A stretch of 64,000 bases of DNA from Alitta virens (lineage: Eukaryota > Annelida > Polychaeta > Phyllodocida > Nereididae): assembly GCA_932294295.1 (NCBI GenBank), contig OW028582.1:35381204-35445203 (forward strand), read 5' to 3'. Below the pieces are notes generated by a model. It had not been told where the DNA came from and searched no databases. It was given only the letters and a program-made list of their open reading frames with translations. Positions 6,013 to 58,900 of the stretch are shown here, piece after piece; within the stretch, counting starts at the first letter, position 1, and every line of letters begins with the position of its first letter. A program made the position numbers and the translations under genes.

Positions 6013-9000
6013 CATCGGTCACACCGGGGATGCGACTTCTGTTCAAGGGTAAGTCGCTAGGGGTTGGACAAAGCCGATTGTGGCCGGCCTTTAATTGTCA
6101 ATCTATACATCTATCATTAAAAAATCTTTATATTGCTGCATTTAGATATAAGGTTATAAATGTTATACATTTTAATAAGACATCACTAACCCGAAACACA
6201 AGATAAATATTGTGTGATTATTTGGTTATGTCATATTTTGGATGATAGACAATGTTGTTATTCCATTATATTTATTTTAATAGTAATGCTACTAGTTTGC
6301 CTATTGGTGGTCATTAACCCTTAGTAAAATATACCTCGGAAGGTATCCACTCATTATCTTATTACGTATTCAATAGGAGGCTGTTGAGTCAACAAGGGGA
6401 ACTGAAAACTGGTCCTGACAAAAATATTTTTATAACGTAATCATGCAATCAGGTCATTGAGGGCATTGTTGATGTCCCAAAAGTTCTGAGGACTGGTATG
6501 CAGCTCCCCCTGGTGATTTTAGAGGTCATCAACAATGGTTATAATAATTGCTTGGAATTAATTGTTAAATTTTTCATTCTAGATATGTCTACCCCACCAT
6601 GGACCAATTATCTGACATGCTTTTGCCCGTCATGCAGTTCTATGGGTAAGTAATTTTCACGATAAATTTATCGATCATTATCCTACCCATTGGTCTTTTT
6701 CATGCTGAATTATATTGCATATTTTATGGTTAAACTCATATTTTATGGTTTTTCAAAGTATGATAATTTTATTTCCAGATTGAATCAGTTCATTGGATTT
6801 GGTGTCGGGGCTGGAGCCAATGTTTTGGCTAGATTTGCTGTAAGTAACCACTAATTTGGAAAATTGTGAAGTTTGCTTGTTTGAAATAGTTTATTTGCAA
6901 CTACAGTCAACCCTCATTTATCCGGACCTCACTTATCCGGTTCCCTCGCTATCCGCACACAGTTGGCTGGGAACAAATCTACTTAGTGCATTTATATATA
7001 TTCAGTTATCCCCTTGTTTATCCGCAGTTAACTTGGGGACGAAGGTGTGCATATAAATGAGGGTTGACTGTAAATGAAAGAGCTGAACAAAAGCAAAAAA
7101 GTAAAATTATGCTGCACCACTGTTACGCACAGTGCATATAAATATGAAGTCACATAGGTTATATACAAACATACTTATATCTTTACATTCTCGGGTGCTC
7201 ACAATCCTGTCATTGGTGCGATGTCTCTTAATGAGCACAATAATTGTTATCCCTTGACCTGTTTAGCTGACCAAGGTCATCACTACATTGTATACTTCGT
7301 TACCACCAATAAGTCAATAACTTCGATATAGTAATTGATTTTTTATGCAATTGCCTGCTTGTCAATGTATTTTATAGGTTCATATTTTAAAACACTTTTC
7401 AGATCAAGTACCCGGACAAGGTCGAGGCCCTCACCCTTCTAAATTGCTCTGCAACAAAAGCAGGCTGGATGGAGTGGGGTTACCAGAAGGTCAACTCGTG
7501 GTATTTACGCAGCGGCCAGGTTACCACAGGGGTTGAGGAGTACCTTTTGTGGCACTGGTTTGGTGATAACACGATGCACAAAAACCACGATCTAGTGCTC
7601 TCATATAGCACTTACATCAAGGTTATCAACCCCACGAATCTGGCTCACTTCATCGAGTCCTACATCAAGTAAGTTCAACAAAATTAAACATTTGTAAGAC
7701 GACTGATAATATTATAAGAAATAGGAAGACTGTAGTGCTTTGCGTGTTAGTGTCTCAATGCTACTGGGTCTGAAGCTTCGTCAGCTTATATGACCAGCTG
7801 CCAGAGGCAGATGTAATGATGAGATGTCTTAAAGAGTCCACATCATGTTACACTTTACCCCATGGGTTGGGTCTTATACCCCACAATCAGTTGTATACCA
7901 CATAGAAAAGCCATGTGGTATAGCCTATGTGGTATACATGTGTATACTACATGGCTTACCTTACAAGGATGGGAAATGTATACCACATACTTCTATGTAT
8001 GGCAGGCCAATGACAAAAAATCAGTTTTTGCAGCTAAGCGCTTCGCCGTTTAAACTAACGCCGCCGCTTTAAAACAATATTCGGAGTCACAATTTTACTA
8101 CTACTTAAAAGATAAAATTGTCAGCTCTCTAAAAAGGTTAGAATTTTTGAAATCGGACAAGAATTAACGCTTCTAGGACCAAAAAACGTAACAGAAAGTC
8201 AATGGTCTGTTCAGTCCACAGATGCAAGCCATTGTGTGGCTGTGTTGCTATGGGCAACGTCACAGGAGCGTCATCGCTTCGGTAATACAATCGAATAATA
8301 CGGAACAATAAAACATTTTCTGTCCAAATCTAGTATGAAAAACAATTCTGACAAGAAATATTTAACAACTGGTTTGTAAATATCATTCGTAAATTTTTTT
8401 ATTAACCTCAAAATGTCCCAGAAAGTTTTGAGGTGATGACGTTGTTGACAGTTATGCAATGCTCTGATTGGTCAATGGCAAAAATTAATATTCATGAATT
8501 TTTTCTATACTACATGAATGCATAGCCAGGCAGCTCAACTAAAAGTGAAAATTGTGGGGTATAAATAAGACCCAAGTGGATATGTGGTATATTTTTATAT
8601 TCCCTCACTTGTGGACAGATTGTTTTCAGAATTCACTCGTGGCTAACGCCACTCGTGAATCCTGGCCAATCTGTCCACTCGTGGGGAATATAAAAATATA
8701 CCACATAACCATTGGGTCTTATTATATTACTTTCCTCAGCATAGACACCAAGTACAAGGCATGTGAATAAGTAATATGCACTACTATGATAATAATGATT
8801 GATAAGATAATGCCATGATGCATGTAATGGCAAGAATTCCTACATACCCCACAATCAGTTGTATACCACATAGAAAAGCCATGTGGTATAGCCTATGTGG
8901 TATACATGTGTATACTACATGGCTTACCTTACAAGGATGGGAAATGTATACCACATACTTCTATGTATGGCAGGCCAATGACAAAAAATCACTTTTTGCA

Positions 9001-10530
9001 GCTAAGCGCTTCGCCGTTTAAACTAGCGCCGCCGCTTTAAAACAATATTCGGAGTCACAATTTTACCACCATTCAAAAGATAAAATTGTCAGCTCCCTAA
9101 AAAAAGTTTAGATTTTTGAAATCGGACAAGAATTAACGATTCCAGGAGCAAAAAACATAACAGAAAGTCAATGATCTGTTCAGTCCACAGATACAAGCTA
9201 TTGTGTGGCTGTGTTGCTATGGGCAACGCCACAGGAGCGTCATCGCTTCAGTAATAAATCTATTAATACTGAACAATAAAACATTTTCTATCCAAATCTA
9301 GTATAAAAAACAATTCTGACAAGAAATATTTAACAACTGGTTTGTAAATATCATTTCGTAATTTTTTTTATTAATGTGAAAATGTCCCAGAAAGTTTTGA
9401 GGTGATGACGTTGTTGACAGTTATGCAATGCTCTGATTGGTCAATGGCAAAAATTAATATTCATCAATTTTTTCTATACTACATGAATGCATAGCCAGGC
9501 AGCTCAACTAAAAGTGAAAATTGTGGGGTATAAATAAGACCCAAGTGGATATGTGGTATATTTTTATATTCCCTCACTTGTGGACAGATTGGCTTCAGAA
9601 TTCACTCGTGGCTAACGCCACTCGTGAATCCTGGCCAATCTGTCCACTCGTGGGGAATATAAAAAAATACCACATAACCATTGGGTCTTATTATAAGACT
9701 ATTGATTTTCTCCAAATTGGTTATGTTCATGAATTATCATTTGCAAGAAGGTTTCTCTTTACTAACTTAATCATTTAAAAGAGATTTGATTTTCTTTCTC
9801 TTTCAGGAGAACAGACCTTGGAGTATCACGGGAAACTGACCCTATCAAGAAGCTATCCACGAAGACTATTAAGTAAGCTAATGCAATGTATTAATCTCGT
9901 AGAACTCCTCAGTAGTGCTCGTTTCATTGCCTCATGATTGCGTTTCATTGTGTTGCATCAGTGCTTCTTGCGCAATGCTAAGTCAACTTATAGGACTTTT
10001 TTGCCGAGGATAATCAGAGAAGGACAAATTTGTACAACTTGCTGGACGACACACATCCAAATTAATGGTTACTTTCGTCAGAGATTAATAATATTATGGT
10101 CATTTCTTATCACAGGTGTCCTACCATGCTTGTTGCTGGGGACCACTCTCCTCACTTAAATGACACAATCACCATGAATTCCCGACTGGATCCTGCATCA
10201 TGCCAATGGATGAAGGTAAATATAATGGTTTCTGTTTGATGGGTACTGCGCTGAAATATTAGTATATCATATGGCAACATTTGAATTATATACTCATTAA
10301 GGGTGTCCATCACAACAGAGTTAACAAACCAAAACCTAAATGTTAATACAGGTGTGATGGAAAGAAATATTCAGTGCGTGATTTTGCAGTTTAGTTTTTT
10401 CAGTATTGATTTTAGAGAGAAAACATGAGCTCAATGTTTTTAGTAAAATGGTAAAATCATTCATTCAGTTTGTGGATAATCAGTACGTAGTCTGTCAGGT
10501 AGTATCAAAGAATGAATGATTGGGTAATTA

Positions 10531-16478: not shown

Positions 16479-19400
16479 TCAGTCTCTCTCATATTCAATA
16501 GGTTCGACCAATTCCACTAATTGATCTGCTAATTCCTTCGTACTGGCGCAAAGAACTCGTCGCGACATCAAATCCAAGGGTCCACCTAAATTGGGAGTGA
16601 AAACATTAAGTTATATTGATACTAATATATGGTTAGCGTATATCCAAAGACAGATAGATAAATAGTCAATTATGCATATACAAGTACTTCACACCTATTG
16701 GTACTATGTCTATATATATATATATACACTGTGCTAGATTTACAGTTAACTTAATTAGCTTTACTGATAAGAAAATAAAAGACGTATGATTATCGTTCCA
16801 CAGGATCTAATCTAAAAGTCAATGAGGGCTGTTCCATTTAAAAAAGATGGGGGGGGGGGAGTGGACCTAAAGATTTTTCAGACATCGGGAGGGTCTGGGA
16901 AAAAGTGATATCGGGGGAGGGGAGGGCGTGGTTGACCAGTATTTTCTTAATATCTTAATGTAGAAAAGGTGGGGGTGGGGGGTCTGTTAAAAACCAGATA
17001 TGGGGGGTGGGGAGGGGGCTTAAAAATGTTCAGGTCCATCCCTCCCCCCCCCTTTTTTAAATTGAACAGCCCTGAATCTACTGTTAAGAGGCATTATAAA
17101 TAATACACAGGAATTACAATTTTACGAACTATTACAGTAAGCAGCCACTTTCTTTTCAACATGATTTGCAAACATCAGATATATTATACACATAATTTCA
17201 TAAAAGAAGCTTATAGTTAACCTTTTAGATCTAAGACGACACCCCCCGCCATTCTAACAATGAGATCACCCGCCGCATAGTCCCAGCAATGAACACCGCT
17301 CTCGTAAAAGGCATCAGCATGACCAGCGGCCACAGAGCACAGAGCAAGGGCTGCTGACCCTACGCAACGAATCCTAAAACATAAATTTAATTTATTATTT
17401 TAAACAGTTGCAACAAGTTTATAACTCTTGCTTGAACTGAGAAATAACAGCTAGAATTAGATGTTGAGAAAAATAAATAGTGACAATTGGCTGCTGGCAC
17501 TGATAGATGCTGCAAAAAAAAAAAAAAATTCTGCATTTAAGCAAAGCTAATAAAAAAAAGAGCTTGAGAACTTAGTTAATTTCTTACATATGTTACAGAC
17601 AGGCATATTTACAACATGGCCATGCCCTAGAATCACCACTGTTAAGAATGTTAACTTTAAATGTCAGCCTACAGATTAGTGATAATTAATTCATGCAGAA
17701 AGTGGCTGCTCACCTGCAATTGAAATCAAGTAAGTTAATAGCTGTCTATGGCTTAAAAAGCATTACACAGATAAACTAAAGCAAACTAGCGGGGAGATAG
17801 TCAAGTTTCAGGATCCTGCTGAGGAGCACAGATTCAGGGGTCAGAAGTGGAACTTTACTTACTTAACACAGCGGTATAGCAACCCAACTTCAGAAAATGC
17901 AAATACTTCCAGAACTCTATCCAACAACAGGAATGGCTAATTGGTTAGCTGTTCTACACGTAAAGCCAAACCATTATAACTGCATTAATTGGGGTTATTG
18001 TTTGCAGGCAGAAGTTTGGCGTTACTTCGTATACCAATAACAACTAAAAAAGGGTTACAAAATTGATAACTGAATAAAAAAGTTTGTGTTATTACACTTG
18101 GACCTGTCTATAAAGGTCACTCTTGGTACACTCAGACCCCCTTAAAATGAACCAGTCGAGACTGTACTAAAGTCTTGGTTATAACCGAGTTTCCTTCAGG
18201 GGCAGATTTAGGAGGTGGCATTGGGGGAGTGTGCCTCCCTCCCCTTTTGTTGTTGTTAGAAATAGCAGTATTTCCCTTAAGGCCTATCGAATATATGTGC
18301 CATGAAGGCTCTCTACTACTTCTCTCCTGACTGTGCAACCCCCCCCCCCCCCCCTTTCACAATGCCTGGATCTGCTCCTGTCAACACACGCAAGTCTGCT
18401 GATATAACTATGCTCATCATAAATGGGCCCTATGTACTTGGTCAGTGATCATAATAGTGTTTAACCCCCTGCCCCCCCCCCCCCCCCCACACACACACCC
18501 TGATTAGAAATCCTGCAATTGATTTTCAGGTTGCCCCCAGTTTTAAACCCCAGAAAGCATTCCCTGAGTGCAACTTTATAGAAGGCCCTGAAATTTTGTA
18601 GCCATATTTGGGGACATATAGCCTTATTAGGGATATGTAAGGAGGTGGTCTTAAAGTGATCTCTCTCGAGGCTCAAGTGTGCTAACATCACCATTTCAAC
18701 TTAGGGAATAAACAAGACTGTCAATGAGCAAACTAAGGTTAATTAACTACACTACAGATAAAAGTAAGCTAATTCCAACCAGTAGGATCTAGTACAACGC
18801 CCCCAGCCTCAGTAATAAGAAGTGCCGCGGCAGCATAATCCCAACAGTGTATTCCCTGGTGGATTTTTCCATCCAAGTGACCAGCGGCTACAAACGCAAG
18901 TTCCAGGGCAGCAGAACCTAGCTCCCTTGACCTATATAATATATAAAACCAATGGCATAAATCTGTAGATCTCCAGAAGGAAAAGAAAAAAAAAGCAGAC
19001 GTAAGAAATGAAACTGGTTATTATATACAGTATTTTCCCTGAGACATCTATATGAAAATAACATGTGCATTTTTGTACAAACTAGAGATGCCTATTTACA
19101 AATTGAAAAATATTGTGATTGTGTAGCTGTTATTTCTCCTGTCCAAGCTCTGCAATGTACTGAAAATAAGGTAACCATGGCGCCATGACATCATCTTATG
19201 GGTTGCCATAGTGACACCATGGCAATCAACTGCGGCATGAAATAATATTCAACCAAGCTCATAGATGATAATTATAATAGTCCACCTAATGTGATTCATT
19301 GAACTTAATGCAAAGTTGAAAATAATAGAGCATTTTATAATTTGCAGGTCTTTCAAAAAAATACAAAAGATCATACAATAGAAATTTTTCAGGCAGATCA

Positions 19401-22400
19401 GCATTATTGTCTCAGCACATTTGCAGCTTAAGATTTCACTTCTACAGAAAGCCAAAGTCCAGGCCAGGAGAATAACCCAGGACTCTATTTCAAGCTTACA
19501 GATATCATCACAATTATTTCTACTGTTGCAATCGATCTGCCTTTATGCTGATGTATGAATTGATCCTTAAAAGGAGTCTATACAACCAATACAACCAAGT
19601 AAAAAGTTCGAGTTTAGTGCAGTATAGCGGACCCAAATTATTGACCATATTTGGCTTCCATGAAACATGAAAATAATCACTATTTTTGACTGAAGTTTAT
19701 TCTGGCACACAATAAGAATACATTTGTGTAGAGTAGCGGGGTCTGGGGGCAGCAGCCCCCAAGAAAAAGCAAAATAAATTATCATTAACTTGCGTTCTTG
19801 CTTCACCGCCGCCGTTAGTTAGTGACGTCACCCATTGAATTCAAGCATTTTACGTCATAGGCCTGGCAACGAGGCTTGCTAACTATGGTCAATAATTTGG
19901 ATCCATTATACTGCACTTTTTCCAGAAGTTTCAGCATGAGTAACAGCCCACTGACTTACCCATGGCATTTTTCAATAACTCTTTTCTTGGTGGCAATTTT
20001 TGCCTCCATCTTCTGTGGATCTCGATCAGAACCAAATTCTGCACAAACTAACGCTTGACCAATATCTGCAGAAAAAAGAGAAGAAAAAAAATAGCTTTGA
20101 ATTCTTGGACTTAGCAATAAATTGACCACGATAATGGATTTAGAATTATCAAGTGATGCTTTACCTTTTGTTGTTGTGACACTCAGCTTTTTGCCATTAC
20201 AAAATGCTCCTTGGCCTGCTCTAGCAGTGTACATTTGTTCCAGAATTGGGTTGTACACAACTCCAATTTCTGTCTGCAAAAAATAGACAGATACAAATCT
20301 TACTATAGTAACACCACACATACAACCTCGAAATGTCCGTTTTGCTTCTCGTTTCCCCAAACTTATTGATCTAATGTGGCTTACCTTTTTGTTCACGGTT
20401 AATGCTAAGGAGATGCAGGAATATGGAAATCTGGAGAGGCAAAAAAAAACATAATCCTTTTACATGTATTAGACATTAATAAAATTTATTTCATAGATAA
20501 ATTTCGATATATATTTATTTCATCACAATTGGAAACTTAGTCTCCTACACAGACCCTCTACTTTCTTTGCAACATTACGCCACTAGGGGCGCTTAGCGAA
20601 GGGCGATAGCCCTGAGGGTCTACCAGATTTCTGACGGAGCAACGTTCCGGGTGGGGGTGTAAGGAATTTAACCCTTTATATCAGTTACTACTTTATTCGC
20701 TCCTACATGGAATTCAACGGGTGCCGTAATTGACTTAGTTTTGGCGCTGTTAGAGCAATGTTGCTAAATCACAGTCTGGGAAACTTATCATTAACAAAAT
20801 TGGTTTGAAACTGAAACATTTAGTAATAAATGATACACTTCCAGTGTTAAATGGGATAACTAATATTATTATGAATATACCTGTGAACAAAATTGGTTGT
20901 CCCATCGATAGGGTCGATCATCCAAGTGGGATTATCTGTCCACACACATTTTTCTCCACCTGCAACTGACTCTTCTCCGATAAAACTACCCGAATGAAAG
21001 ATACAAAGTTAGATGCAATGCATATTCACACACAAGCATTATAATAGTATTTGAAATTTAATGCTAATCATTCTAGTACTGGGCTTCATAAATATATCAT
21101 TTTTATTTTACTCCTCCAAATTACCAAATTTAATTGCTAGTTGATTAATTATCAGTTGCAATTTACCTGTGAGTGGGAAACTGAGATTTCAATGTTGATA
21201 TGATTAGCTTCTCCACAGCCTGGTCAGTCTCAGTTACGAGATCAGCTGCAGAGCTTTTTGTCTCTATTCTTTTCTCCGCATCATATGCCTCTCTGATTAG
21301 CTAAAAATAAATAAAAAATACCATAGAATTTAGTTGATTTAAATTTAATTTGTAATGCATATCAAAATCACCAGGTAGAATTCCAGAATGGACAATACAT
21401 CTGAAAACAATTAAGGGTCCAGACAACTATTTCATTGCCACGCCACGCCCTCTGCTTGTATCATTGATAACTAAAAGCTTTGTGACGCCAGCCGAATGAC
21501 TCGCCGTTTATTAACATCTACTATCGCTGTTAATAGTTCCTCGTGTGTGCATACATAAATAATTTGCTGATGGGCAGTAATAATGACGCTGAGATATGTG
21601 TGATCAGCCTGTTTCTGTTTTATAAATAACTAAATTTCTGCATTTTTCTGAATACATGGTTTTGAAGGCTGCAGTTTCAGAAAAAACTGCGTTGAGAAAC
21701 ATAACTTCTGATAATTGCTAATAATTGCTAATAAAAGAACCTTTTTCTATGCAACTTTATAGTACAACATTTCGTTTTATGTCCTGTTTTCAAAGTTATA
21801 TTGATTTGAAATTTCAGGTCATAGTGAAAATAAGCTAACGGCCCTTTCAAAAAATAAAAAGAGCAGTTTTTGTCACATTCATAATTCAAAACAGTGTCTA
21901 TTTAGCAAAATGTGGCTTTTATTATTTTTTTAAATGCATATATTAAAAATACAGTAGGACAACTGCAACCCAGCCTTGCCCTTAAAATGTATGACATGCA
22001 AATAAGTCCAATAATGGAATATACTTCTGAAGTTTGGTTTCAGAATAAAAATAAAAATAACCTAGAAAAGATACACTTATCATATATGAAAAACATCTTA
22101 AGAACCAAAACGTCAACTTCAACTATAGCCCTATATAGTGAACTTGGAAGATTTCCTATAGCCTTAAGATTGAAATGTAGATTAGTGAACTATTGGAAAA
22201 GACTAATAGGGTTTAACTCAAGACATCCAGTAAAACAAGCCTACATACATTACATACATTACTTAATTTAAATAACATGGGACAGACTAACTGGTGTACC
22301 ACTCTCAGGAATATCTTATCGGAAACAAATCATCTACATCTGTGGGATGAACAGAGCATCACAGATAAACAATACCAACTAATTAAAGAAAGCCTCTATA

Positions 22401-24854
22401 CAGAATTCATTAAAATTACCTTACAATAGATACTAACCCGAAGCTAAGAACATACAAACTCTTCAAAAATCATTTTCAGTTTGAAACTTTTCTCTCCATC
22501 CCAACAAACATAAATCATGCACTAGCACTAACATAATTTAGAATAAGTTCACATAACCTTGCGATAGAAACAGGCCGCTATACTAAACCAAAAACACCTA
22601 TAGTGGAAAGACTATGTATACACTGCAACACAAGAGAAATTGAAACAGAACAGCATTTTCTTCTAACATGTCCCCTGTATAATAATGAAAGATATCTATT
22701 AATGCAGTCTGTATCTCCACACATTATAGAACTAGATAACCTGAACCATGAGGATAAATTTATAAAAATCATGTCTAGTAGAGAAAAATGTGTTACTGAT
22801 GCACTAGGCAAATTTATTTCACTGCGTTTTAACAAGAGAAACCTGATCAAACTGTAAAGTAATCAAAAATTAGAGTAATAAAATATTATGAAAGTAACGC
22901 ATGACCAGACTCATACACAAGCTAAACCTAAAATTATTGTCACACTATATGACAAAACACAACTCAATAATTTGAATCAACCACAAAACATTCAAGTTAG
23001 TACATTAGACAAAATTTGAGCATTGTGTCAGAGTATTATGTGTCATGGTAAGCTCACAGGTTCAACTCAAACCTACCTGTTGCATACCTGGACAATTAAA
23101 GGGAGGGCCAGCGCAATGCTGCCTGACAATGGACTATTCTTCTTATTAGAAAACATTAATGTAAATGTTTTTGCAACTGTCACTATTCTTTTGTTTATTC
23201 TATGTTTTATGTTCTTTTGTTTATTCTATGTACTATGTGCTAGACATTTTATCTTAAGTTACCTATTATATGGAAACTATGTCAATGCGGACATTTATCA
23301 TTCGGTGCTAACCTATGTGATTTGATAAACTGACATTTTGAAATCTTGGACAATGAGGCCTATAACCCTCCTGTAATTTAGCAAAATGTTAAAAATTTTG
23401 GATGGTGCAGTAAACCTGGTGCTAGGCAATATATAACAGCTACTATGAGATTGTGATTTATTTCATATATTATTATTTTATTTGAATTTTTCAGTATTAT
23501 GATATTCAGTATTATGAGATGTGTTCACTGTGATGTTGTAGTTAAATAGTTTACTATGGTCCCAAAATTCCCCTATTTCTGAAATAGAGAAAGTGCAATT
23601 AGGTTACCTGAAGAATGTATTAAATGTAAGAAAACAAACCCCCTCCTTAGCTGTGTATGCAGAAACAGGACGGTTTCCACTGCTCATCAGACAAAAACTT
23701 GCTACAGTAAACTACTGGGCAAGACTTCAGACAATGCCTAATGGTGACATATTAAATAAGTGCTTAAAAATACAAGAAAAACTACACACATATGGTCAGA
23801 GCAACTGGTACACTAAAGTTAAGCATATCATCTCTGAAGCAAAAATAATTAATTGGCAAGCCCTAGAACCCAGTGTACTGACAAATAAGATGAAACTGGT
23901 ACTTCATGACAATGAAAAGAATAGAATTCTTAATGAAATAAATGACACAAACACCCAACCTAAACTTAGGACCTATAAAACATTCAAAACCAGCTACTGC
24001 ATTGAGCCATACCTACTTTTAAACCTGCCTAAAAAAATATACAGTAATATAGCAAGATTCAGAGTTAGCTCCCACAATCTTAAAATTGAAACTGGTAGAC
24101 ATGAATCCCCAAAAATCCCATTGCATGAGAGAATATGTGAAAATTGTGATAGTGGTGACATAGAAGATGAAGCTAACTGTTTACTGACATGTAACAAAAA
24201 TGAAATACCAAGGCCAGAATTACTTAATATAGCAACTGAGATTATACCAAATTTTCATTACCTAGACAAATCACAACAATTTCAAGCCCTATTGTCATGT
24301 AAGAATCCAGAAGTACTAAAGGCATTAGGAAATTTTCTAAATAAAGTTATGAAATAACATTAATGCAGTATTGGTGCCCCCTTTCCGCTGGACAAAGGAA
24401 CCTTTCAAATCCAACACCCCTTTTCGCAATTTCAGAGGTCAGCACAATGTTGCTCTGAAGATCCCACCCATTGACCCAGCCCATGGACACCCCCTTTCAC
24501 CATTTCAGAGGTCAGCGTAATGTTGCTCTGAAGCCCCCGCCCCCACCCCCTGACCCAACCCATGGACACCCTCTACCATTTGAAATTGACTTTTTATTCT
24601 AGTTTGTTTTTGTGACCACTTGCAGTATTGACCTACAGTATTAACTCTGTCTTATATTCATGTATATATATATATGTAAGAAAAACTGGAACTGACTTGC
24701 GTCTATTAAGTTAATCTTTGGAAAAACTAGTAGATTATAAATTGTATACACTAGAGTAGTTGTAGACACTAGACTTGGTTTTGTAATGTTGTATGTTTGT
24801 TTTGTAATATTAATGACACATGTATCCATTCCTGATATCCAGTTTGTCAAATAA

Positions 24855-24888
<34 letters not shown>

Positions 24889-25388
24889 TAGAAAATTAGA
24901 TATATAATATTAAGTTAGTATTTTCAATATATATGTAATTTTTATGTCTGTATTAACAATGTATTGTGCATTCTATGTACCTTGTTTATGACGAATGGGT
25001 CAAAACTGACTCCGTATGGTCAAATAAAATTTATCTATCTATCTATACCCCCCCCCCCCCCCCCTGAATCGACGCCCCTGCTTCGTACATTGTAAATGTA
25101 AATAAACAGGATACCACATGTACAGTAAGGGAGGGTATTATCGACAGGGCGTATTTTCGACACTCACATTAAAATGTTAGAAATAATTATTGTTAACATT
25201 AATTTAAGTGTCGAAAATACCCGCCCTGTCGATAATACCCTCCGTTACAGTACAGTAACTCTCTCATTTAGTCTCAAAGAGTCAAACCATGAACATTGCT
25301 CAAACCAAATTTAAACAGTGAAATCACCTACCACAGCTGCTTTCTTGGCCACATCAAGTGCAGCTTGAAAACAGGCGTCCAAATCCAT
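16479..25388 (-). CDS. IMPA1: Inositol monophosphatase, 8 coding exons plus one alternative exon
   Basis: It hydrolyses inositol monophosphates to free inositol in the cytosol (Mg-dependent, lithium-sensitive family). Exons in coding order: 25332-25388, 21167-21300, 20881-20985, 20385-20430, 20165-20273, 19960-20065, then 18780-18931 or 17222-17373, then 16479-16585. Using one of the two alternatives gives 816 bp and 271 residues with every phase matching; human IMPA1 has 277. Metal ligands are visible: GEES (Glu69), DPIDGTTNF (Asp88, Asp91) and HCWDYA (Asp217). Other family stretches are [24 protein letters not shown] and [10 protein letters not shown]. The start is fixed by [11 protein letters not shown] at the divergent promoter. 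Intron 1 (about 4 kb) holds LINE fragments. IMPA1 and IMPA2 cannot be separated, so the symbol is approximate. Confidence 0.93.
16826..17072. mobile_element. GGGCTGTTCCATTTAAAA MITE, copy 1
   Basis: Inverted termini GGGCTGTTCCATTTAAAA and its near-reverse complement (one mismatch) are flanked by TGA on both sides (16823-16825, 17073-17075). The interior is rich in G runs. The 3-bp TNA duplication and the GGGCTGTT terminus resemble PIF/Harbinger (Tourist-like) MITEs. It lies in the last IMPA intron. Confidence 0.75.
17222..17373 (-). CDS. IMPA alternative exon B (distal)
   Basis: This is the second version of the seventh IMPA exon: 152 bp, same phases as exon A at 18780-18931, acceptor TTTTAG and donor GTTAAC. 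It encodes [13 protein letters not shown], the substrate-side Glu in FYESG, HCWDYAA and [10 protein letters not shown]. It keeps the Glu equivalent to human Glu213, which contacts inositol, but has RMAGG where other members have EAGG. Because 152 is not a multiple of 3, using both versions together would shift the frame, which suggests mutually exclusive use. Confidence 0.85.
18780..18931 (-). CDS. IMPA alternative exon A (proximal)
   Basis: First version of the seventh IMPA exon: 152 bp, acceptor ATATAG, donor GTTGGA. It encodes [32 protein letters not shown] and [12 protein letters not shown]. The metal ligand Asp of WDYA is present, but the position equivalent to inositol-contacting Glu213 of human IMPA1 is His. 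The TEAGG motif is intact. It lies 1406 bp upstream (in transcript sense) of exon B. Confidence 0.85.
19616..19917. mobile_element. AGTGCAGTATAGCGGACCC MITE, copy 1
   Basis: Termini AGTGCAGTATAGCGGACCC and an imperfect inverse ending ATACTGCACT are flanked by TTT on both sides. The interior holds GGGGGCAGCAGCCCCC and TGACGTCA-like text. Related copies lie at 47179-47375 and 57861-58188. It is in an IMPA intron close to exon 6. Confidence 0.7.
21912..22857 (+). mobile_element. LINE ORF2 3' fragment, degenerate
   Basis: Frames at 21912-22271 and 22603-22857 encode pieces of the C-terminal part of a non-LTR retrotransposon polyprotein: [40 protein letters not shown], then a Cys-His finger [19 protein letters not shown]. 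Stops and frameshifts between them show it is dead. It lies on the opposite strand within IMPA intron 1. Confidence 0.8.
23593..25050 (+). mobile_element. Second LINE fragment with tetranucleotide tail
   Basis: A 254-codon open frame (23593-24357) matches the same protein region as the neighbouring fragment: [27 protein letters not shown] style text, then [19 protein letters not shown]. It is followed by a 3' region ending GTCAAATAAAATTTATC and a short (ATCT)n tail near 25030-25047, as in many LINE 3' ends. The reverse transcriptase core is missing, so it is 5'-truncated. It is in IMPA intron 1. Confidence 0.8.
25123..25250. mobile_element. CAGTAAGGGAGGG foldback MITE, copy 1
   Basis: A 128-bp near-palindrome with arms reading GGGTATTATCGACAGGGCG, then TATTTTCGACACT, closing with the inverse. 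It is flanked by TA on both sides. CAGT-like ends and TA duplication suggest a Tc1/mariner-type non-autonomous element. Copy 2 is at 36244-36360. Confidence 0.8.
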
Positions 25389-28373: not shown

Positions 28374-28532
28374 GGGTTGTTCCATTTAAAAAAGATTTTT
28401 CAGATATTGGGCGGGTCAGGGGAAAACTGATATGGGGGTGACCAGTATTTTTTTAATGTCTTAATGTAGAAAAAAAAGAGGGGGGGGGGGGATGAGTAAA
28501 AAACCAGATACCTTTTTTAAATGGAACAGCCC
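28374..28532. mobile_element. GGGCTGTTCCATTTAAAA MITE, copy 2
   Basis: Termini GGGTTGTTCCATTTAAAAAA and its near inverse, flanked by TTA on both sides (28371-28373 and 28533-28535). It has the same G-run interior as the other copies and probably lies in the 3' UTR of the coiled-coil gene. Confidence 0.75.
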
Positions 28533-32188: not shown

Positions 32189-34760
32189 CTATACTGAAGA
32201 TAAAAAGTCTCCCAAAGCATTCGATTGATTTTTCTTTGCTTCTTGTTGTTTTTTAAGTATGTTTTGTAAGATATTTCTTGATCCTCCTTTCATTTTGCGC
32301 TTTTTTGTATTTCCACAAGACGGCAGGACTGTCTGTGTTGCTTTCGCAGGGGTAGGAGTCTTTTTACCAGTGTTTAATGGCCTGAAAAACAATATCAGAG
32401 GATTAGTGCATGTGTCAAAACAAGTGCATATCTTTTAAGAGGCTCTGTACTGTGTAAATTACTAAAAGGTTCGTAAAACAAATGATCATGTTACTTATGT
32501 ATCATTTGCGATATCTTGATTGTATATGTTCCACCAGTGAGTTATCCTATTTTACTATATATCTCATTGTGTGCCACAATCACTCCATGATCATGATGAT
32601 TGCTTAGCAAACATATCTGTGCACTGTGTGACCTGAAATTCTTCCATAAACGATTCAACAATGCCTTGCCACAGTATTTTCTTGATTTGCTACTGCTATT
32701 TAGAGATGATCCTCATTACTATGAAACTTGAATAGCTGGTCAACTACGACTTCCCTTAATTAAACATGAATTTGCAAAACAGAGTATTAAGTATAGATTT
32801 ATCAAAACCCTTAATAATATGTCCGTGACTTACAGAGAAAAATTAGAAGCACATAGTTTAGATGGATTTAAGAAATATGTGAAAAATAGCACTGTAGCAT
32901 CTTATTCCGCAGACTGCAGCATTGAAAATTGCTATATTTGTATAAATGTTCATCCTACTGCTTCTTCATAATATTCTTCATAATATTTTTCAACAATATA
33001 TTCTTTAACTTGAGATGAGTAACGTAGATAAAACTACTATTGATGAGAGTAATTTCCATATTGTGTTTGATTTAATGTTCACTATGTAATATTAATGGAT
33101 CTCTCAAGGTGGCCTCATGCTAGTGATAAAATATATTTATCTTTGTGAGGTCTCCTTGCAAAACAAATGTTAATAAATGAAAATATGAAAATAAATTGTA
33201 AATATTTTTTGGCAAAATAAAAAGAATCTGAATCTTAATCTATCAGACAGCTACTCTCGATCAAGAGCTTGGGTTTGGTTTGGTTCTTGCATGGCCCATG
33301 GCATTTTTCATTTAACTGTCTTGTAATCGTTTTCAATTTTTAGACAGAGAAAGGATTCCAGTTGTAGCCAAAAAGAGTGAACCCTCACCACCCTTGTCTC
33401 ATCATTGCCATCAACCAACCCTTTTAAGTATTGTGAACTGGCCCAAAAGTGATCAGCAAGATGCCAAGAACTTACTTTGGTGAGTCTTTTCTTTCAGCAC
33501 CAGCTAATTTTGTGGTCTGAGGAATTCTTGCAGGAATAAGAAGACCGTGATCTTGGTTTTTCTTCGGTTTTCTTCTTTTCCTTTTCTTCTTAGAAGGCTC
33601 TTCTGAATTAAAGTGAAAAAATGAAATAAACGTAAATAATGTTCATTATTACTTCACTGTGATCAGAAAGTGTAATGAACTATGAACTTACCATTATTTT
33701 CAACCACGGTCTTCGGCACATTACGCCATTCCTTATTGCCGACGGCCAAAGTATTACTTTTATTGCAAGTCAAGCACTTAACCGTCTGAAGAAAAAAAGA
33801 AGAAGACAGAAATGGCAAAAATCTAAAAATTATGAAATGATTTATACAACACCAAAGAAAGCGAAATGAGTGAAAACAATATATGAATTTATATCAAAGT
33901 ATTTCTAATGCTAAAATTTTAGCCTTGGTCTTTAACTTAGGAAGAAACTTTATATGCAATCCACCAACCAGTCCAAGTAAATTGGTAATAACTTTTTAAA
34001 AAGAATTAAAGTCAACACAATACTTTGGCTGAAAGTTTAAAACATAACCACAATGACAGCTTACCTTCTTAATGCTAGATTTCCTTGCCCTCTTAAGTAA
34101 CAGAAGCTGAAGTTCCCCCAGTGACTGACCATTGTTAGCCTGTTCTTTAAGTTTTCTCATTTTAACATGTTGTTTCCCTTTTGATTTAATCCGTATCTTG
34201 GTGTTTTCTTGTGTCAAAACATTTCCACAATATGCACAGGCTGTAACATCAGGCTTGTTCTTCTCTTCTGTCAACAGGTGCCATGCAAATTGAAAGAAAG
34301 AGAAAAGTATTAGGTGTATACATGACGTTGGTTATGTTAAATTGTGATGTGGCATATAATTGAGCCTAATTAGGCTATCGCTTACCAATTGCTCCAGATC
34401 GTGCCAGCTCATAGGCATGCATCCTGTAACAAAATTTAACTGTTTTCTTTAGAACTTAATATTAAACACAAGCCATATTGAAAAGTTAATTACCATATTT
34501 TGAGACTATAAGTAGGCCCATTATCCAAGCAATTACAGTGGTAATTTTATTGAAATTTTGCATCGGATATTTAGGCCTATTTGCAATAACAAAAGAAAAA
34601 AAGGAAACTGATTTACATACATGAATATTCTAGAGACTGTGGGTGAAATAGCTGAGTAAAATTTGGCAGTCAAGCTGTGCTTCAAGTAATGCTCGTTTAA
34701 TTCATTTTTCGTCGTTTCCTTTATGTCCGTGTCCGTCGTTTCCTGTGGGTCCGTGGCCAT
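32189..34760 (-). CDS. C18orf21: C18orf21 (UPF0711) homologue, putative RNase MRP subunit
   Basis: Exons in coding order: 34621-34760, 34386-34423, 34065-34267, 33692-33785, 33476-33602, 32189-32381. Phases agree throughout, giving 264 residues from MATDPQETTD to FLSSV-stop (human C18orf21 is about 220). The hallmark is a split zinc ribbon: CAYC (Cys70, Cys73) and CLTC (Cys131, Cys134), matching CPYC and CKTC in the human protein. The HYL...SPTVSRIF helix before it and the FLSS tail at the C-terminus also fit. A basic KKKRKRRKPKK stretch (exon 5) and KKRKMK (exon 6) look like nuclear or nucleolar signals. The human protein has recently been tied to RNase MRP, so a role in rRNA processing is likely by homology. 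The family call is from memory of motifs, not a search. Confidence 0.8.
32730..32971 (+). mobile_element. CR1/L2-like LINE ORF2 C-terminal remnant
   Basis: A plus-strand frame reads QLRLPLIKHEFAKQSIKYRF, then LEAHSLDGFKKYVK and a stop at 32969-32971. This follows the usual C-terminal pattern of CR1/L2-type polyproteins (R-x-P-xx-x-x-F-x-KxSxxYR ... SLxxFKxxxK). It lies antisense within the last intron of the C18orf21 gene. The AT-rich 3' end to about 33235 probably belongs to it. Confidence 0.6.
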
Positions 34761-49900: not shown

Positions 49901-52900
49901 TCCTGTCTGTCCCTTCTTTATCAAACTTTTGATCTGTCTCCAAATGTCTTTCTAACAGTTGACATTGCGATGCTTGGGTGAAAACTGCTGTAAGTTCAGG
50001 ATCTATCACAGTAATTGACTATCAGATTCAGATTATTTATTTTTTACCTACGAACTAAGTATTATTTTACATAATATTATAAAGGTATATAATTAACAAA
50101 TAACATAACATGTGTCAATAATTTTAGAATTAAAATAGTAGTAGAAGGGGGTTGACAAATGTTTTCATAAGATGGATGTAATTTATTGGTTTCTGTTGCT
50201 TCAGACACTGCCTAGAAGTGCTAGAAAATCTGGTGCTGCCCGACTCCGATGAGGTTTGTTTTTATTTTGTGTTTCTCTAATTGATGAGTTGTTCACTTTG
50301 AAAATTTTCATGTGGCGAATTAAATTGTACTTTCTAACTTGCAGTTATTACATGAAACTCTTCAGCAGCTAGAGGTGCAGTAAAACATTACCCCTCATTG
50401 TGCTGTGTACCTTGTTTCGCTGAAATCTCCCTATTTTTATGTGCTAAATTATGAATTGCATTTTATCAAGCGTACATGAGAAATCTACATCAGATTAGCG
50501 TTGGGACTAAAATATAATTTTCCACCTAATTCTTCAATGATTCAACAAAAATGTTTATGCATGCAAACATACTTTCCTGCAAATTATTAATTAGTCAAAA
50601 TTGTGATATTGTAAAGTCTGTTGTGTCCACCGATTTGTTTTTACTGAGCCCTTGATTAATTTGTGTTCACATGGCTTGTTTGACTGACTGTAGATTTAAG
50701 TGTGTTGTGGTGACCAAGTAGTTAAAGATTTTATTTCATTTGTCCAGCATGAGTTAGTTCCCACTCCTCATTGAATTCCTGACAGATTTTGTGCTATTTG
50801 TGTTTGAGTAAATAAAGTAAATATATATATTTGTGCTACCAGTGTCACTACTAATAACAAAACAGTATATAGTACTTGATACAACTGTTTTCCCCCCAGA
50901 TTTGGTTGGAACTTGGTTGGAACTTCCTTTTATTTTGAAAAAATTCATATTTTACCAAATATATATTTTTACATGAAAGTACATCATAATTGGACAACGC
51001 TGGGCTTGACAAGAAAAAAAACATATGAAGTCCGAGGGAATAACATATTCAGAGTGAATAACATACTTCCAAGTTATTTGCTAATTCTTTGTTTTATTCT
51101 CAGAATGATGACGAACCAGTGAGTACTCCAGTTAAACCATCCTTACAGAAAACAAAGTCATGGCCGGGCCATTCAGAATTTAGTGCTTTATCAAACTCAA
51201 TTCGCAAGACAAGCTTCAGAGAGGAACATGAAGCTTTTAATTATGATCCTGATGGGTTGATTATGCGAAGTGGTGGTGGCGCTATGACTCTACAAAGCAA
51301 GTTGAACAACAGCTATAGTTCTCTGAAAGCAAAAGGATCCAAAGGATCGTCTCCTGAGGAGCCTAAAAACCGTCTGTACCAATTTCAAAATGGCAAGGTA
51401 AGTCTGAGAATCTTTTGATATTGTCTGAGGGCTGGTCCATGAGTGTGTGGTGGGAGCAGACAGGATGATTTCGGAAAAAGTAGGGGAGGGGATTGCCAAA
51501 AGAGTGGTTGACTAGTATTTTCTTAGTATCATATTTTAGAGGAAAAAAAAGAGTGGGGGGTGGGTCTTTAATAAACAGAAGCCAGAGGAGGGAGGGGACC
51601 TGAAAATCTTCACACTTTTAAATTGAATAACCCTGAACTGCATTGATGCTTTACTTATCCACGAATATATTTCCAAATTCGGGAAGTACATTTTCCCAAT
51701 ATTTTTGAATTTGTATTTATATTTCACAATCTACAATGTATATAGTAAGTGACAGAAGAAAAGACGAAAAAAAAAAAAAAAGGAAAAAAAAAAAAAAAGG
51801 GGAAAAAAGAATAGGAGCATAGAATTAAATAAGAATAAGAGTAATAAGTAAATAAGGAGTAAAGTTAATAAGCAAAGAAAAGATAATACAGGAGGATGAA
51901 ATAAGATTCTTTAAAATGGATGATGTAATATGTATATGGGGATATAAAAAATTTTTATTCTGGTTAATTCGGTTAAATAATGGCTTTTACAGGCAACTGG
52001 AAGAGACACAGGAAGCACTTCAGCTCATGGAGACACTTCAGAAGAGGTGAATGATATATATTTTGTGGGTAGATTGTTTTGTAGATTTCATTATCGTCTC
52101 GGTAATATATTGTTACTTACCTTACCAGAACTGTGTGCTGTGTGAGGGCTGTTCCATTTAAAAAAGAGGAGGGGGGAGGGGGTGGAGCTGAAAATTTTAA
52201 GAGCCCTTTCCACCCCCGATATCTGCATTTTGACGGACCCCCGCTTCCACCACCCCAATATCAGTTTTGCCAGAACACCGCCCCACCCCCCTTTTTCCGA
52301 TATCTGAAACATCTTCACTTCTCCACCCCCTTCTTTTTTAAATGGAACAACCCTGAGGAATAACTTAAGATCGCCCTCAGTTCCAGGCTATTTGACCTAT
52401 TTGATCTACATTTAATTTCCTGAGCTCATATCTTGATAATTATCAATCGCCTGCATATTTGCAGAACTGGGAGGATGGCGTAGAGTATCCAACCTTCATT
52501 CTTGGCAAAAAACAATTTCAGGTCACATCGACAGCAGTAAACCACGCACACCCAAGAATTTTGCTAAAAACGCCCAGTAAAAGAAGTCTGCCACCGAGTA
52601 ATGGTATGTTATTTTTTCATCTCATCCTTATTTCTGCCTCTGGAAGATAGTCAGACTCAGAGATACATTTATTCTGCATCAGTACATTTTAAACATTCAT
52701 ACTAGAAAAAGAGTAAAAAATCTTACGCAGCAAGGGAGACCTTCCAAAGGCCTGCAAGGGCGCTGCAGGTAGGCCACCCTGATTTATAACATAATTGATA
52801 TATAACAGATTTAATAATATAATATGTATTATAAATAATTGATTATTGTGAATAATTAATATTGTGAAAAATAAAGTTGTCTATATTGTCATGTAATCTA

Positions 52901-55900: not shown

Positions 55901-58900
55901 TATTTGATAATTTCATCCAAGTCTTGTTTGTTAATTTGACCTTTTCAGCTGATACCAAAAACCTTGAGAAAGTAGCCAGACGGTCTGTTCTCAAGAGTTG
56001 GCCGGGTGAATCTCGCCGAGTGATATCACCGTCACGACTCAATAGCTGGCCAGCGACACCTAGAAAACCTTCAATCGAAGATAAGACGGCCTGGTGGAGG
56101 TGCCCTGCTCCTCATTATGACGACTCCTCCAGCACAACTAGCGTTGGCAGCGTCAATACTAACCAAGGTAGAGTGCCCAGAATGCTGCATGATTCAAGAG
56201 TTTCACAAGATGTTTTCTATGCTTGCGTAGTGCTTGCTTGTCTTCATTACTTGGTGATGTCCAATCCTCTAGCAAACTCTAATGTAACTTAAAGTCTGGC
56301 TATATAACCTAAAGAAAGCAGTCAGTTGCTGATCAAATATTGGAGTCTTGTGACTACAATTTCCACAGAAAATGAGTCAGCTGGGAGTGAATATATATAA
56401 TATTATATGTCTTTCTGACATGTAACAAAACCTCACAAAGAACAGACACTTTTATAGTCCAGTACTCTGTTACATCGGAGTTAAATCACAGTAGAGTTTG
56501 TAGCTTCTTCTTTAATATGTCGTTCGTTGTATGCTTTGCAAAGAGGGTTGTGGCTATTAGCTGGTCTAGTTTGCTTGCTGTGTAGTTGCTTATTTAGCCC
56601 GCAATGTCTTGTAGTTTGTTTGGTTATGATTATACGTCAAAAGCACCATTACTAGAGAGAGTTTGAACAACCTGTGGGGCGACCTAATTGGTATATCCCC
56701 TCAAGAGTCTGTACTGAGGAAAGTCAAAGATCCCACCCTAGTGGTAAATGTATAACATGGTTTGCTTGTAGTTACACAGTGTGATTAACTATACCTTTGC
56801 CCATCGGTGGGTTGCTGTTTTGCTAGCCACAGCACTGGTACTGAGTACAAACTGTCAAATATGTCGTCACATCAGAGAGGACTCCAGCAGAGCTTGCCAG
56901 TAAACCTTTGACCTTGAGGAGTGTATATATGATTGAAACATTAGACCACCCTCTCAGTTTCTTGATTTTGAAATTAATTTCCAGGCAGCTCACCGGAAAG
57001 ACCTGTCCGTGTCCTTCGACAGCCCATTCACTGGGCCATGAGCCTCGACAAAATCCGAAAAGCCGAGAGCATGATCCCAAATATGGGAGCACTGGGGGCG
57101 AAAAAACGACGCACATTGTTCAGATATACTACCACTGACAGAATGAAGTCTCATGGCATCTATCGTGGGTGTCCCTCATTTGTTTTGCTGTTAAATAATA
57201 GCTATTTCTAAGCGTTGTTTACTAATTACTAATGCGCTAAACTGTTGCCTTTTGGGATGCTTCACTAATAGTACAATCTCTCGGTGACTAAAAATATGTC
57301 ATAAGCATATTAAGCCTACTTTTTCCAGGATTTCCTGCGATTACAATTGAAAGTATACGAGTGTCTTCTCTGATAAGGTGCTCTGTGATGGAGCTCTAGG
57401 TCAAAACTTGAAATGTACTAATATCTGGTGTTAACAGTGCCTGTCAACAAAATGATGGCCATATAATAGCCGAGTTTCAGGCTTTAGTAGTGAGTATTAG
57501 TGACCTACAAGGGCAGATCCAAAACATTCTGAATGAAAAGGATGATAGACGTGTCAAGATATACCTCCTCTTGATCTCTATCAGAATGTTTTGGAATCGG
57601 CCCCTGGATATCACTATTAAAGCCTGTAACTCCACTGGTGGCCGCTTCTTTTTCTGCCACGCGCTATTGCATTATCGCTTCTTGTTTGCATGCCGGTTTG
57701 ATTTAATCTTTGGATTGTGCATTTTTCTTGCCTTACCTTTCTTTTCTCTGTCAATACGATTGCAGTATAACTTGTATTTTTATAAAATTTTACACACTGA
57801 AACCCCTCAATTAAGACTACCTCATATTACTATTACAGTGAGAAAAAATTAATGGGAAAAAGTGCAGTATAGCGGACCCAGATTTATGACCATATTTAAC
57901 AAGCCTCATTGCAAGGCATATGACGTAAAAATGCCTAAAATCCATCTATGACGTCACAAACTAATGTAGTTATGATGGCGATTTTCATCTTCATGGTAAA
58001 AAACATTATGGTAAAGACAGAGTTTATTTTTGCTTTTTCTTGGGGGCTGCTGCCCCCAAACCCCCGTTATTCTACACCAAATTTAGTTTTGATTGTGCAA
58101 GAACTGCAAACTTTTGAAATATTTGATTACATTCAATTTTTAATGCACGCCAAATATGGGCATAAATTTGGGTCCGCTATACTGCACTAAACCCAATTAA
58201 TGCAATTAAAGCAACGTCGATATCAAGGCCATTTCATTGATTCTTTGGGGATGGTCGTAATTGTGGTGTTCCCTCTGTGTATGCTAAGGATGTGTCTTGG
58301 CTCTTGATTGTCATTAAGTTAGCATATTAGCATGACAGTGTGTAGCATATGAGCATGATAGTCCCTAGCATTTTAGCATGATGGTGCCTGGAATATTAAC
58401 ATTATAGCACCTGGCATGAAGATGTAAATAACTTCTGTTATTGAAAGTGATTTAATTTGGCCAACAAGAGTAATTAGGGAATCGGTGAAGTGTGGTCACC
58501 AGTCCAGTTCTGTGATTCATAGGTTGTGTGTAGTGATTGAGTACTCAGTCAAACTACTAACTGTTGTGATGCATTGCATGGAGCGTCCACTGCCACCCTT
58601 GTGCAAACCGACTGGGCATAAACACTTGCGAACTTGATAATTCCACACTGATTGCCAAACGAACCAATTGACAATTGTCCACTACTCACTCTCATTAAGG
58701 AGTAAGTCCAGTGTTAATTGTTTTGTCATGGCTTTAATCGATTCTTGGTGTCATTAATTTCAGAACATGCAACAGAATCTCAAGTGCGATATGAAGAAGA
58801 TGCTTTGCTTGATTTGGCATCTTCTCCGGCTGCAAAACTGAATCCATCTAGTGTCTTTGATGGCTGGCCGACACTCGTCAAGATTTTTCCAAATATTTGC

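Follow-up and report, generated by a model that had tools for sequence, protein, structure and literature searches.

Two homologous copies of exon 7 lie in tandem in an IMPA-type inositol monophosphatase gene of Alitta virens, and the best reading of the sequence, to which we give a probability of about two in three, is that they are mutually exclusive exons which switch the sugar-phosphate specificity of the enzyme. IMPA recycles inositol and is described as a target of lithium. The exon would have been duplicated in tandem, with one copy chosen for each messenger. We consider it very probable that both copies are functional, exclusive exons, and favour, with less assurance, a changed substrate preference as the purpose of the switch. 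Exclusive use of the two exons had been proposed in a preliminary description of this DNA, and what is added here is that the alternation recurs in a range of other animals and centres on residue 213.

The IMPA gene and its two copies of exon 7

In the 64-kb window, i.e., the whole stretch of DNA that was analysed, the gene is complete on the minus strand (25388-16479) and encodes 271 aa (Table 1). Exon 1 lies upstream of the part covered by the preliminary finding and was placed by a profile-free scan with the N-terminus of the homologue P0010, which scored 82 at this site versus 18 at the runner-up. The PF00459 match of each isoform spans residues 4-265 (E 4.2e-84 and 3.4e-87), mammalian IMPA1 and IMPA2 are the top PDB relatives of both, and among the matches listed (best 120 of 5081) the named species closest in this protein are annelids. 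The 671-Mb assembly (23 contigs) was searched for the family exon by exon, scoring the best candidates only. Five of the eight matches are the window gene and the other three are BPNT1-like, INPP1-like and BPNT-like, the last of which we take to be BPNT2; no second IMPA gene was found among the best candidates scored in the genome contigs. The upstream segment, used as a query on the genome, returned the two window copies alone, each once.

Table 1. Exons of the IMPA gene and arms of the candidate intron helices, in window positions
Feature	Positions	Strand	Remarks
Exon 1	25332..25388	-	coding; ATG at 25388, 19 residues, donor GTAGGT
Exon 2 (A)	21167..21300	-	common to both forms
Exon 3 (B)	20881..20985	-	common to both forms; encodes the metal-site motif IDPIDGTTN
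Exon 4 (C)	20385..20430	-	common to both forms
Exon 5 (D)	20165..20273	-	common to both forms
Exon 6 (E)	19960..20065	-	common to both forms; immediately precedes the alternative pair
Alternative exon 7, upstream (proximal) copy	18780..18931	-	His213, Glu230
Alternative exon 7, downstream (distal) copy	17222..17373	-	Glu213, Met230
Exon 8, last coding	16479..16585	-	common to both forms; carries the stop codon
Helix 1, first arm (candidate)	19124..19138	-	intron before the upstream exon; pairs with 17439-17453
Helix 1, second arm (candidate)	17439..17453	-	just upstream of the distal exon
Helix 2, first arm (candidate)	17697..17713	-	between the alternative exons; pairs with 17137-17153
Helix 2, second arm (candidate)	17137..17153	-	downstream of the distal exon

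The window also holds two foldback elements, MITE-like by inspection, which share the inverted-repeat end AGTGCAGTATAGCGGACCCA (19616-19917 and 57861-58188), another family of small foldbacks, with TGTTCCATTTAAAAAAG close to the ends (16825-17073, 28378-28528 and 52150-52349), and dense short direct and inverted repeats at 7874-9647. An open stretch at 33996-34331 (minus strand) falls just short of the cut-off for Pfam DUF4674 (27.8 bits against 28.6), and two on the plus strand (21906-22271 and 23542-24357, the latter with no Pfam match) resemble by eye the protein ends of non-LTR retrotransposons. Scanning the window against Rfam and for tRNAs gave no matches.

The two alternative exons lie on the minus strand where the preliminary description had placed them, are each 152 nt long, and have equal phase, AG acceptors and GT donors. 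Their homology is borne out by identity at 29 of 50 aa and 87 of 152 nt, distributed over codon positions 1, 2 and 3 as 35, 34 and 16 of 50 (positions 1 and 2 versus 3, Fisher p = 2e-5), with a saturated synonymous estimate. Either exon alone gives an open full-length protein. It had been argued from the exon length that a transcript must use one or the other, and this holds: inclusion of both brings in a stop codon 138 nt before the last junction, and inclusion of neither shifts the frame. Under the 50-nt rule messenger decay is expected from a stop at that distance, and joint inclusion or joint skipping would thus each break the IMPA messenger. These are the properties by which mutually exclusive clusters are recognised, i.e., adjoining homologous exons of like length and equal phase whose joint inclusion or skipping is non-productive. 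The donors GTTGGA and GTTAAC are weak, as had been noticed, each matching one of the four consensus bases at +3 to +6 compared with two to four in the six other donors. The alternative acceptors contain 10 and 8 pyrimidines in 16 positions, against 11-16 of 16 in the six other acceptors, and by this simple count the donors and acceptors of the pair are the weakest of the gene.

Inactivating changes had been named as the sign that one of the exons is a relic. Sixteen positions are conserved at 90% or more across 168 unique homologous segments (among the matches listed), and the upstream exon keeps all 16 while the distal exon keeps 15, the exception being Met230. It should be noted that the segment finder requires W219, D220, A or G at 223, G or S at 194 and an AGG-like motif, so that the finder itself partly dictates some of the 16 positions, though neither 213 nor 230. 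The set of 168 omits P0150, P0155, P0168 and P0189, which have no placeable segment, and eight bacterial-looking matches. Position 230 is Glu in all 168 segments (among the matches listed), those of both close relatives included, and Met in the distal exon. Of the contrast drawn earlier between TEAGG in the upstream and RMAGG in the distal exon, Met230 is therefore the unusual part, and Arg229 turned out to be ordinary. The preliminary wording that the exons swap half of the active site was an overstatement, since the exon encodes about 50 of 271 residues and Asp220 is the only one inside it of the metal ligands named in the relevant passage of PMC4954947 (Glu70, Asp90, Ile92, Asp93 and Asp220). 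This residue, the Asp of HCWD, is present in both alternative exons, and the other four ligands are encoded by exons common to both forms.

Residue 213 in the two exons and in other animals

When residues are counted back from Asp220 of HCWD in alignments with human IMPA1, the upstream exon has His at position 213 and the distal one Glu, in agreement with the preliminary reading. According to passages of PMC2080633, Glu213 of the human enzyme bonds the C3 and C4 hydroxyls, Glu or Gln at this position is found in enzymes specific for inositol-1-phosphate, and Asp, His, Ser or Thr in enzymes which use inositol-1-phosphate and fructose-1,6-bisphosphate, or the latter alone. By this residue the upstream His213 falls with the dual IMPase/fructose-bisphosphatases and the distal Glu213 does not. 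The same passages give a shortened beta9-alpha6 loop as a second mark of fructose-bisphosphatases. No such shortening is seen here, where the loop, with limits taken from the text of PMC2080633 and not from a structure, lies in common exons and shows a one-residue gap relative to mammalian IMPA, before the HG that ends exon E. Because the loop is nearly full, fructose-bisphosphatase activity is not predicted, and what is predicted instead is a shift among sugar monophosphates. In a simulation of a related phosphatase, as described in part of a preprint (PMC12324327), E213 contacts the C4 hydroxyl and gives galactose-1-phosphate preference over glucose-1-phosphate. The distal Glu213 form would be the ordinary inositol-phosphate phosphatase. 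The upstream His213 form would keep the metal ligand Asp220 and, with Glu213 replaced, lack the hydrogen bonds which that residue makes with the hydroxyls at C3 and C4, and for this reason it should accept different, or a broader range of, sugar monophosphates.

The distribution of the duplicated segment was addressed by two protein searches, one with the upstream-exon protein (5081 proteins, best 120 listed) and one with a profile of seven non-Glu213 forms (5847 proteins, best 120 listed), the matches of the latter not being an unbiased sample owing to the choice of profile. Forty groups of our own definition were examined among 189 proteins, all of them database proteins or predictions and none of them reads. 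The preliminary description had proposed looking for the duplicated exon in related species, and the same segment was found to alternate in at least 16 other species, with at least two residue types at 213 in each. Among the matches listed there were 12 species with separate isoforms and four gene models with two copies, drawn from decapods, a barnacle, a springtail, annelids and amphioxus. The residues at 213 in the isoforms are Ser/Glu/His in Panulirus, Thr/His/Glu in Homarus, His/Glu in Penaeus japonicus, Macrobrachium rosenbergii and Macrobrachium nipponense, Thr/Gln/His in Procambarus, His/Glu/Thr in Cherax, Glu/His/His in Scylla (two of three forms having His), Glu/His in Portunus, His/Glu in Eriocheir (which has a third, longer form out of register), Glu/Thr in the barnacle Amphibalanus and Glu/Gln in the amphioxus Branchiostoma lanceolatum. 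The gene models carry the two copies in a row, Thr then Glu in Paralvinella and Lamellibrachia (the second copy of the latter being cut by the model) and His then Glu in the springtail Allacma and in Petrolisthes cinctipes. A Glu form is present in 15 of the 16 species, Procambarus having none among the matches listed. Panulirus, Cherax, amphioxus, Paralvinella, Lamellibrachia and Allacma were listed by the first search, ahead of any selection on 213, and the remaining species came from the non-Glu213 profile.

The sequence before the segment is identical in most isoform sets, the exceptions being a Scylla model (187/189), the shorter Homarus form (167/168) and the out-of-register Eriocheir form; the sequence after it is identical save for one model each in Procambarus, Cherax and M. 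nipponense, which have a diverging continuation. Alternatives were present in 12 of the 15 groups with more than one protein. The remaining three groups consist of Penaeus indicus, which gave a single form of the segment, seen twice, B. belcheri, where the proteins are paralogues, and B. floridae, where one of two proteins could be placed. B. belcheri P0075 and P0168 and B. lanceolatum P0150 were dropped as alternatives, their flanks being unlike, as in paralogues, and so was Acipenser P0014, which fuses two larger gene stretches. The close relatives P0010 (85% identity) and P0011 (82%) have the distal type alone among the matches listed, and P0018 is of the Thr type; all three are probably transcripts, as they are whole frames in contigs of 1.1-1.6 kb. 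When the upstream segment alone was the query, nine of 915 candidate proteins were retrieved, of which eight look bacterial and one is an insect protein with Glu213; this search thus gave nothing close to the upstream exon, not even from the two close relatives. In the four two-copy models and in the window the non-Glu copy always comes first (5/5), and this order, drawn from at most four separate lineages, is no more than suggestive.

The forms were compared as seven pairs from six clades (the window, Paralvinella, Allacma, amphioxus, barnacle, and Panulirus Glu/His and Glu/Ser). With a reference of 116 single-form segments, which omits 55 proteins by our own list, some of them known from one form only, 25 of the 50 positions have an entropy below 1 bit, and of these 213 alone differs in all seven pairs. 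The same result was obtained with 130 segments, when only the 37 proteins of the 16 alternating species were omitted: 213 (0.83 bits) is the sole one of 23 positions below 1 bit to differ in 7/7, with the barnacle in or out. When none is omitted (163 segments) 213 rises to 1.20 bits and leaves the well-conserved class, in which no position then differs in every pair, and it is the most conserved of the positions that do. The preliminary suggestion of two substrate preferences gains support from this comparison, as 213 alternates in at least 16 species and is the residue singled out in the passages of PMC2080633. Many positions besides 213 also change (a mean of 3.1 of the seven pairs differ over the 50 positions, and six positions differ in 7/7), and Met230 of the distal exon suggests a change away from the sugar contact; both would fit exclusive exons that are real and whose difference serves regulation, stability, the dimer partner or the response to lithium or magnesium, or yields a catalytically weak form. 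We regard such a role as rather unlikely, given that among the well-conserved positions of the two smaller references only 213, which contacts the sugar in the account of PMC2080633, changes in every pair, and that both copies retain the metal ligand Asp220.

Origin and integrity of the upstream copy

A tree was built from 54 hand-picked segments over 49 columns, with residue 213 excluded, in which nine of 50 inner branches are starred. The distal exon falls together with the segments of the two close relatives (98/91), and a starred branch (99/87) unites seven decapod His segments from shrimps, lobster and crabs. The upstream exon is a long branch with no firm place in the tree. Of four group constraints, named after the tree was seen, none was rejected: a recent duplication (p 0.526) scored above the free tree by 0.76 log units, and the others united the upstream exon with the annelid Thr exons (p 0.345), all non-Glu exons (p 0.27) and the annelid pair (p 0.36). 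With fifty columns a single versus a repeated origin of the duplication is not settled.

The faster evolution of the upstream copy (end branch 1.16 versus 0.06), its weak splice sites and the lack of a counterpart in the two close relatives could also be taken to mean that it is a decaying or rarely used duplicate, with the working enzyme made from the distal exon alone. This explanation is weakened by the conserved residues that the exon has retained, and we consider it improbable: frame and splice sites are intact, all 16 conserved positions are kept, divergence is biased to third positions, and the one invariant residue to have been lost (230) sits in the distal copy instead. Since duplicated stretches can be misassembled, an assembly artefact was also considered as the source of the two copies, as was the collapse of a second gene; neither found any support and both can be practically dismissed, the copies being just 57% identical in DNA and each present once in the genome among surrounding exons that are single and in order.

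Intron helices, known exon switches and implications

Two pairs of complementary intron segments were found around the alternative exons. Helix 1 is a 15-nt perfect complement (duplex -22.7 kcal/mol), reached in 2 of 2000 shuffles and in 1 of 1000 in a separate run; helix 2 spans 17 nt at 94% (-33.2 kcal/mol), including a perfect stretch of 14 nt, a length attained in 14 of 2000 shuffles. Each arm sequence occurs in the window at its two places alone. The third pair of introns yielded nothing of note, its match of 10 nt being reached in 1046 of 2000 shuffles. Helix 1 would loop out the upstream exon, and helix 2, which crosses it, would loop out the distal exon, so that competing helices may aid exon choice. 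This is a weak lead only, because such pairs are common in real window sequence, where there are 33 perfect inverted pairs of at least 14 nt within 2 kb and where 91 of 1213 overlapping stretches of like size (the gene's own included) hold at least two long-loop inverted pairs. In the intron between the alternative exons TTGATTTCAATTGCAG runs directly into GTGAGC on the minus strand (about 17707-17720), which places an acceptor immediately before a donor. The site overlaps an arm of helix 2 and is either a recursive-splice-like site or a chance match.

Exon-switched enzymes are already known, and IMPA would be an added case. The closest likeness is to exons 6a and 6e of coq-2, for which the passages seen in PMC7434440 describe equal-length (134 nt) exclusive exons that swap active-site residues of a metabolic enzyme and change its product in helminths, annelids and molluscs. 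Gene and chemistry are different, and in coq-2 both forms and their effect were tested, whereas the IMPA pair is known from sequence. The same source points to mrp-1 as an example of origins that were independent and repeated. Exon 10 of the oyster alternative oxidase is likewise a tandem duplicate, with a conserved downstream copy and an upstream copy changed around functional sites, but it is another gene with a choice of last exon, and its expression was measured under stress (PMC5589949, in part). Vertebrate IMPA1 and IMPA2 share the fold and family, but are two genes and not two exons; the shark and fish proteins named IMPA2 have Gln213 and those named IMPA1 mostly Glu213 (among the matches listed), and Gln joins Glu in the inositol-specific class of PMC2080633, as far as its passages on this residue go. 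The intron helices recall the competing-structure and bidirectional pairing models outlined in PMC6071210, in the part available, where each helix loops out one exon and the two could hardly coexist, but the evidence for those of the window comes from a single genome and from shuffles. No description of exclusive IMPA exons was found in the open-access literature, which alone was covered and by which absence is not proven; PMC5740500 contains neither "IMPA" nor "inositol", and in PMC9741552 "inositol" is absent and the four "impa" strings are ordinary words.

A more general proposal, which we put forward tentatively, is that the exon switch toggles residue 213 between Glu, which is inositol-specific, and other residues. 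A single gene would then give an inositol phosphatase and a second sugar-phosphate phosphatase, by an arrangement either shared from before the split of annelids, arthropods and amphioxus or repeatedly invented with the same result, and vertebrates would have a comparable difference spread over two genes. If many invertebrates make two versions of the enzyme that differ at residue 213, inositol recycling in these animals would be partly set by splicing, and studies of "the" invertebrate IMPA may cover one form only. The alternating species would also offer natural side-by-side trials of the role of residue 213, several times over, and IMPA would stand beside coq-2 as another metabolic enzyme whose active-site chemistry follows exon choice.
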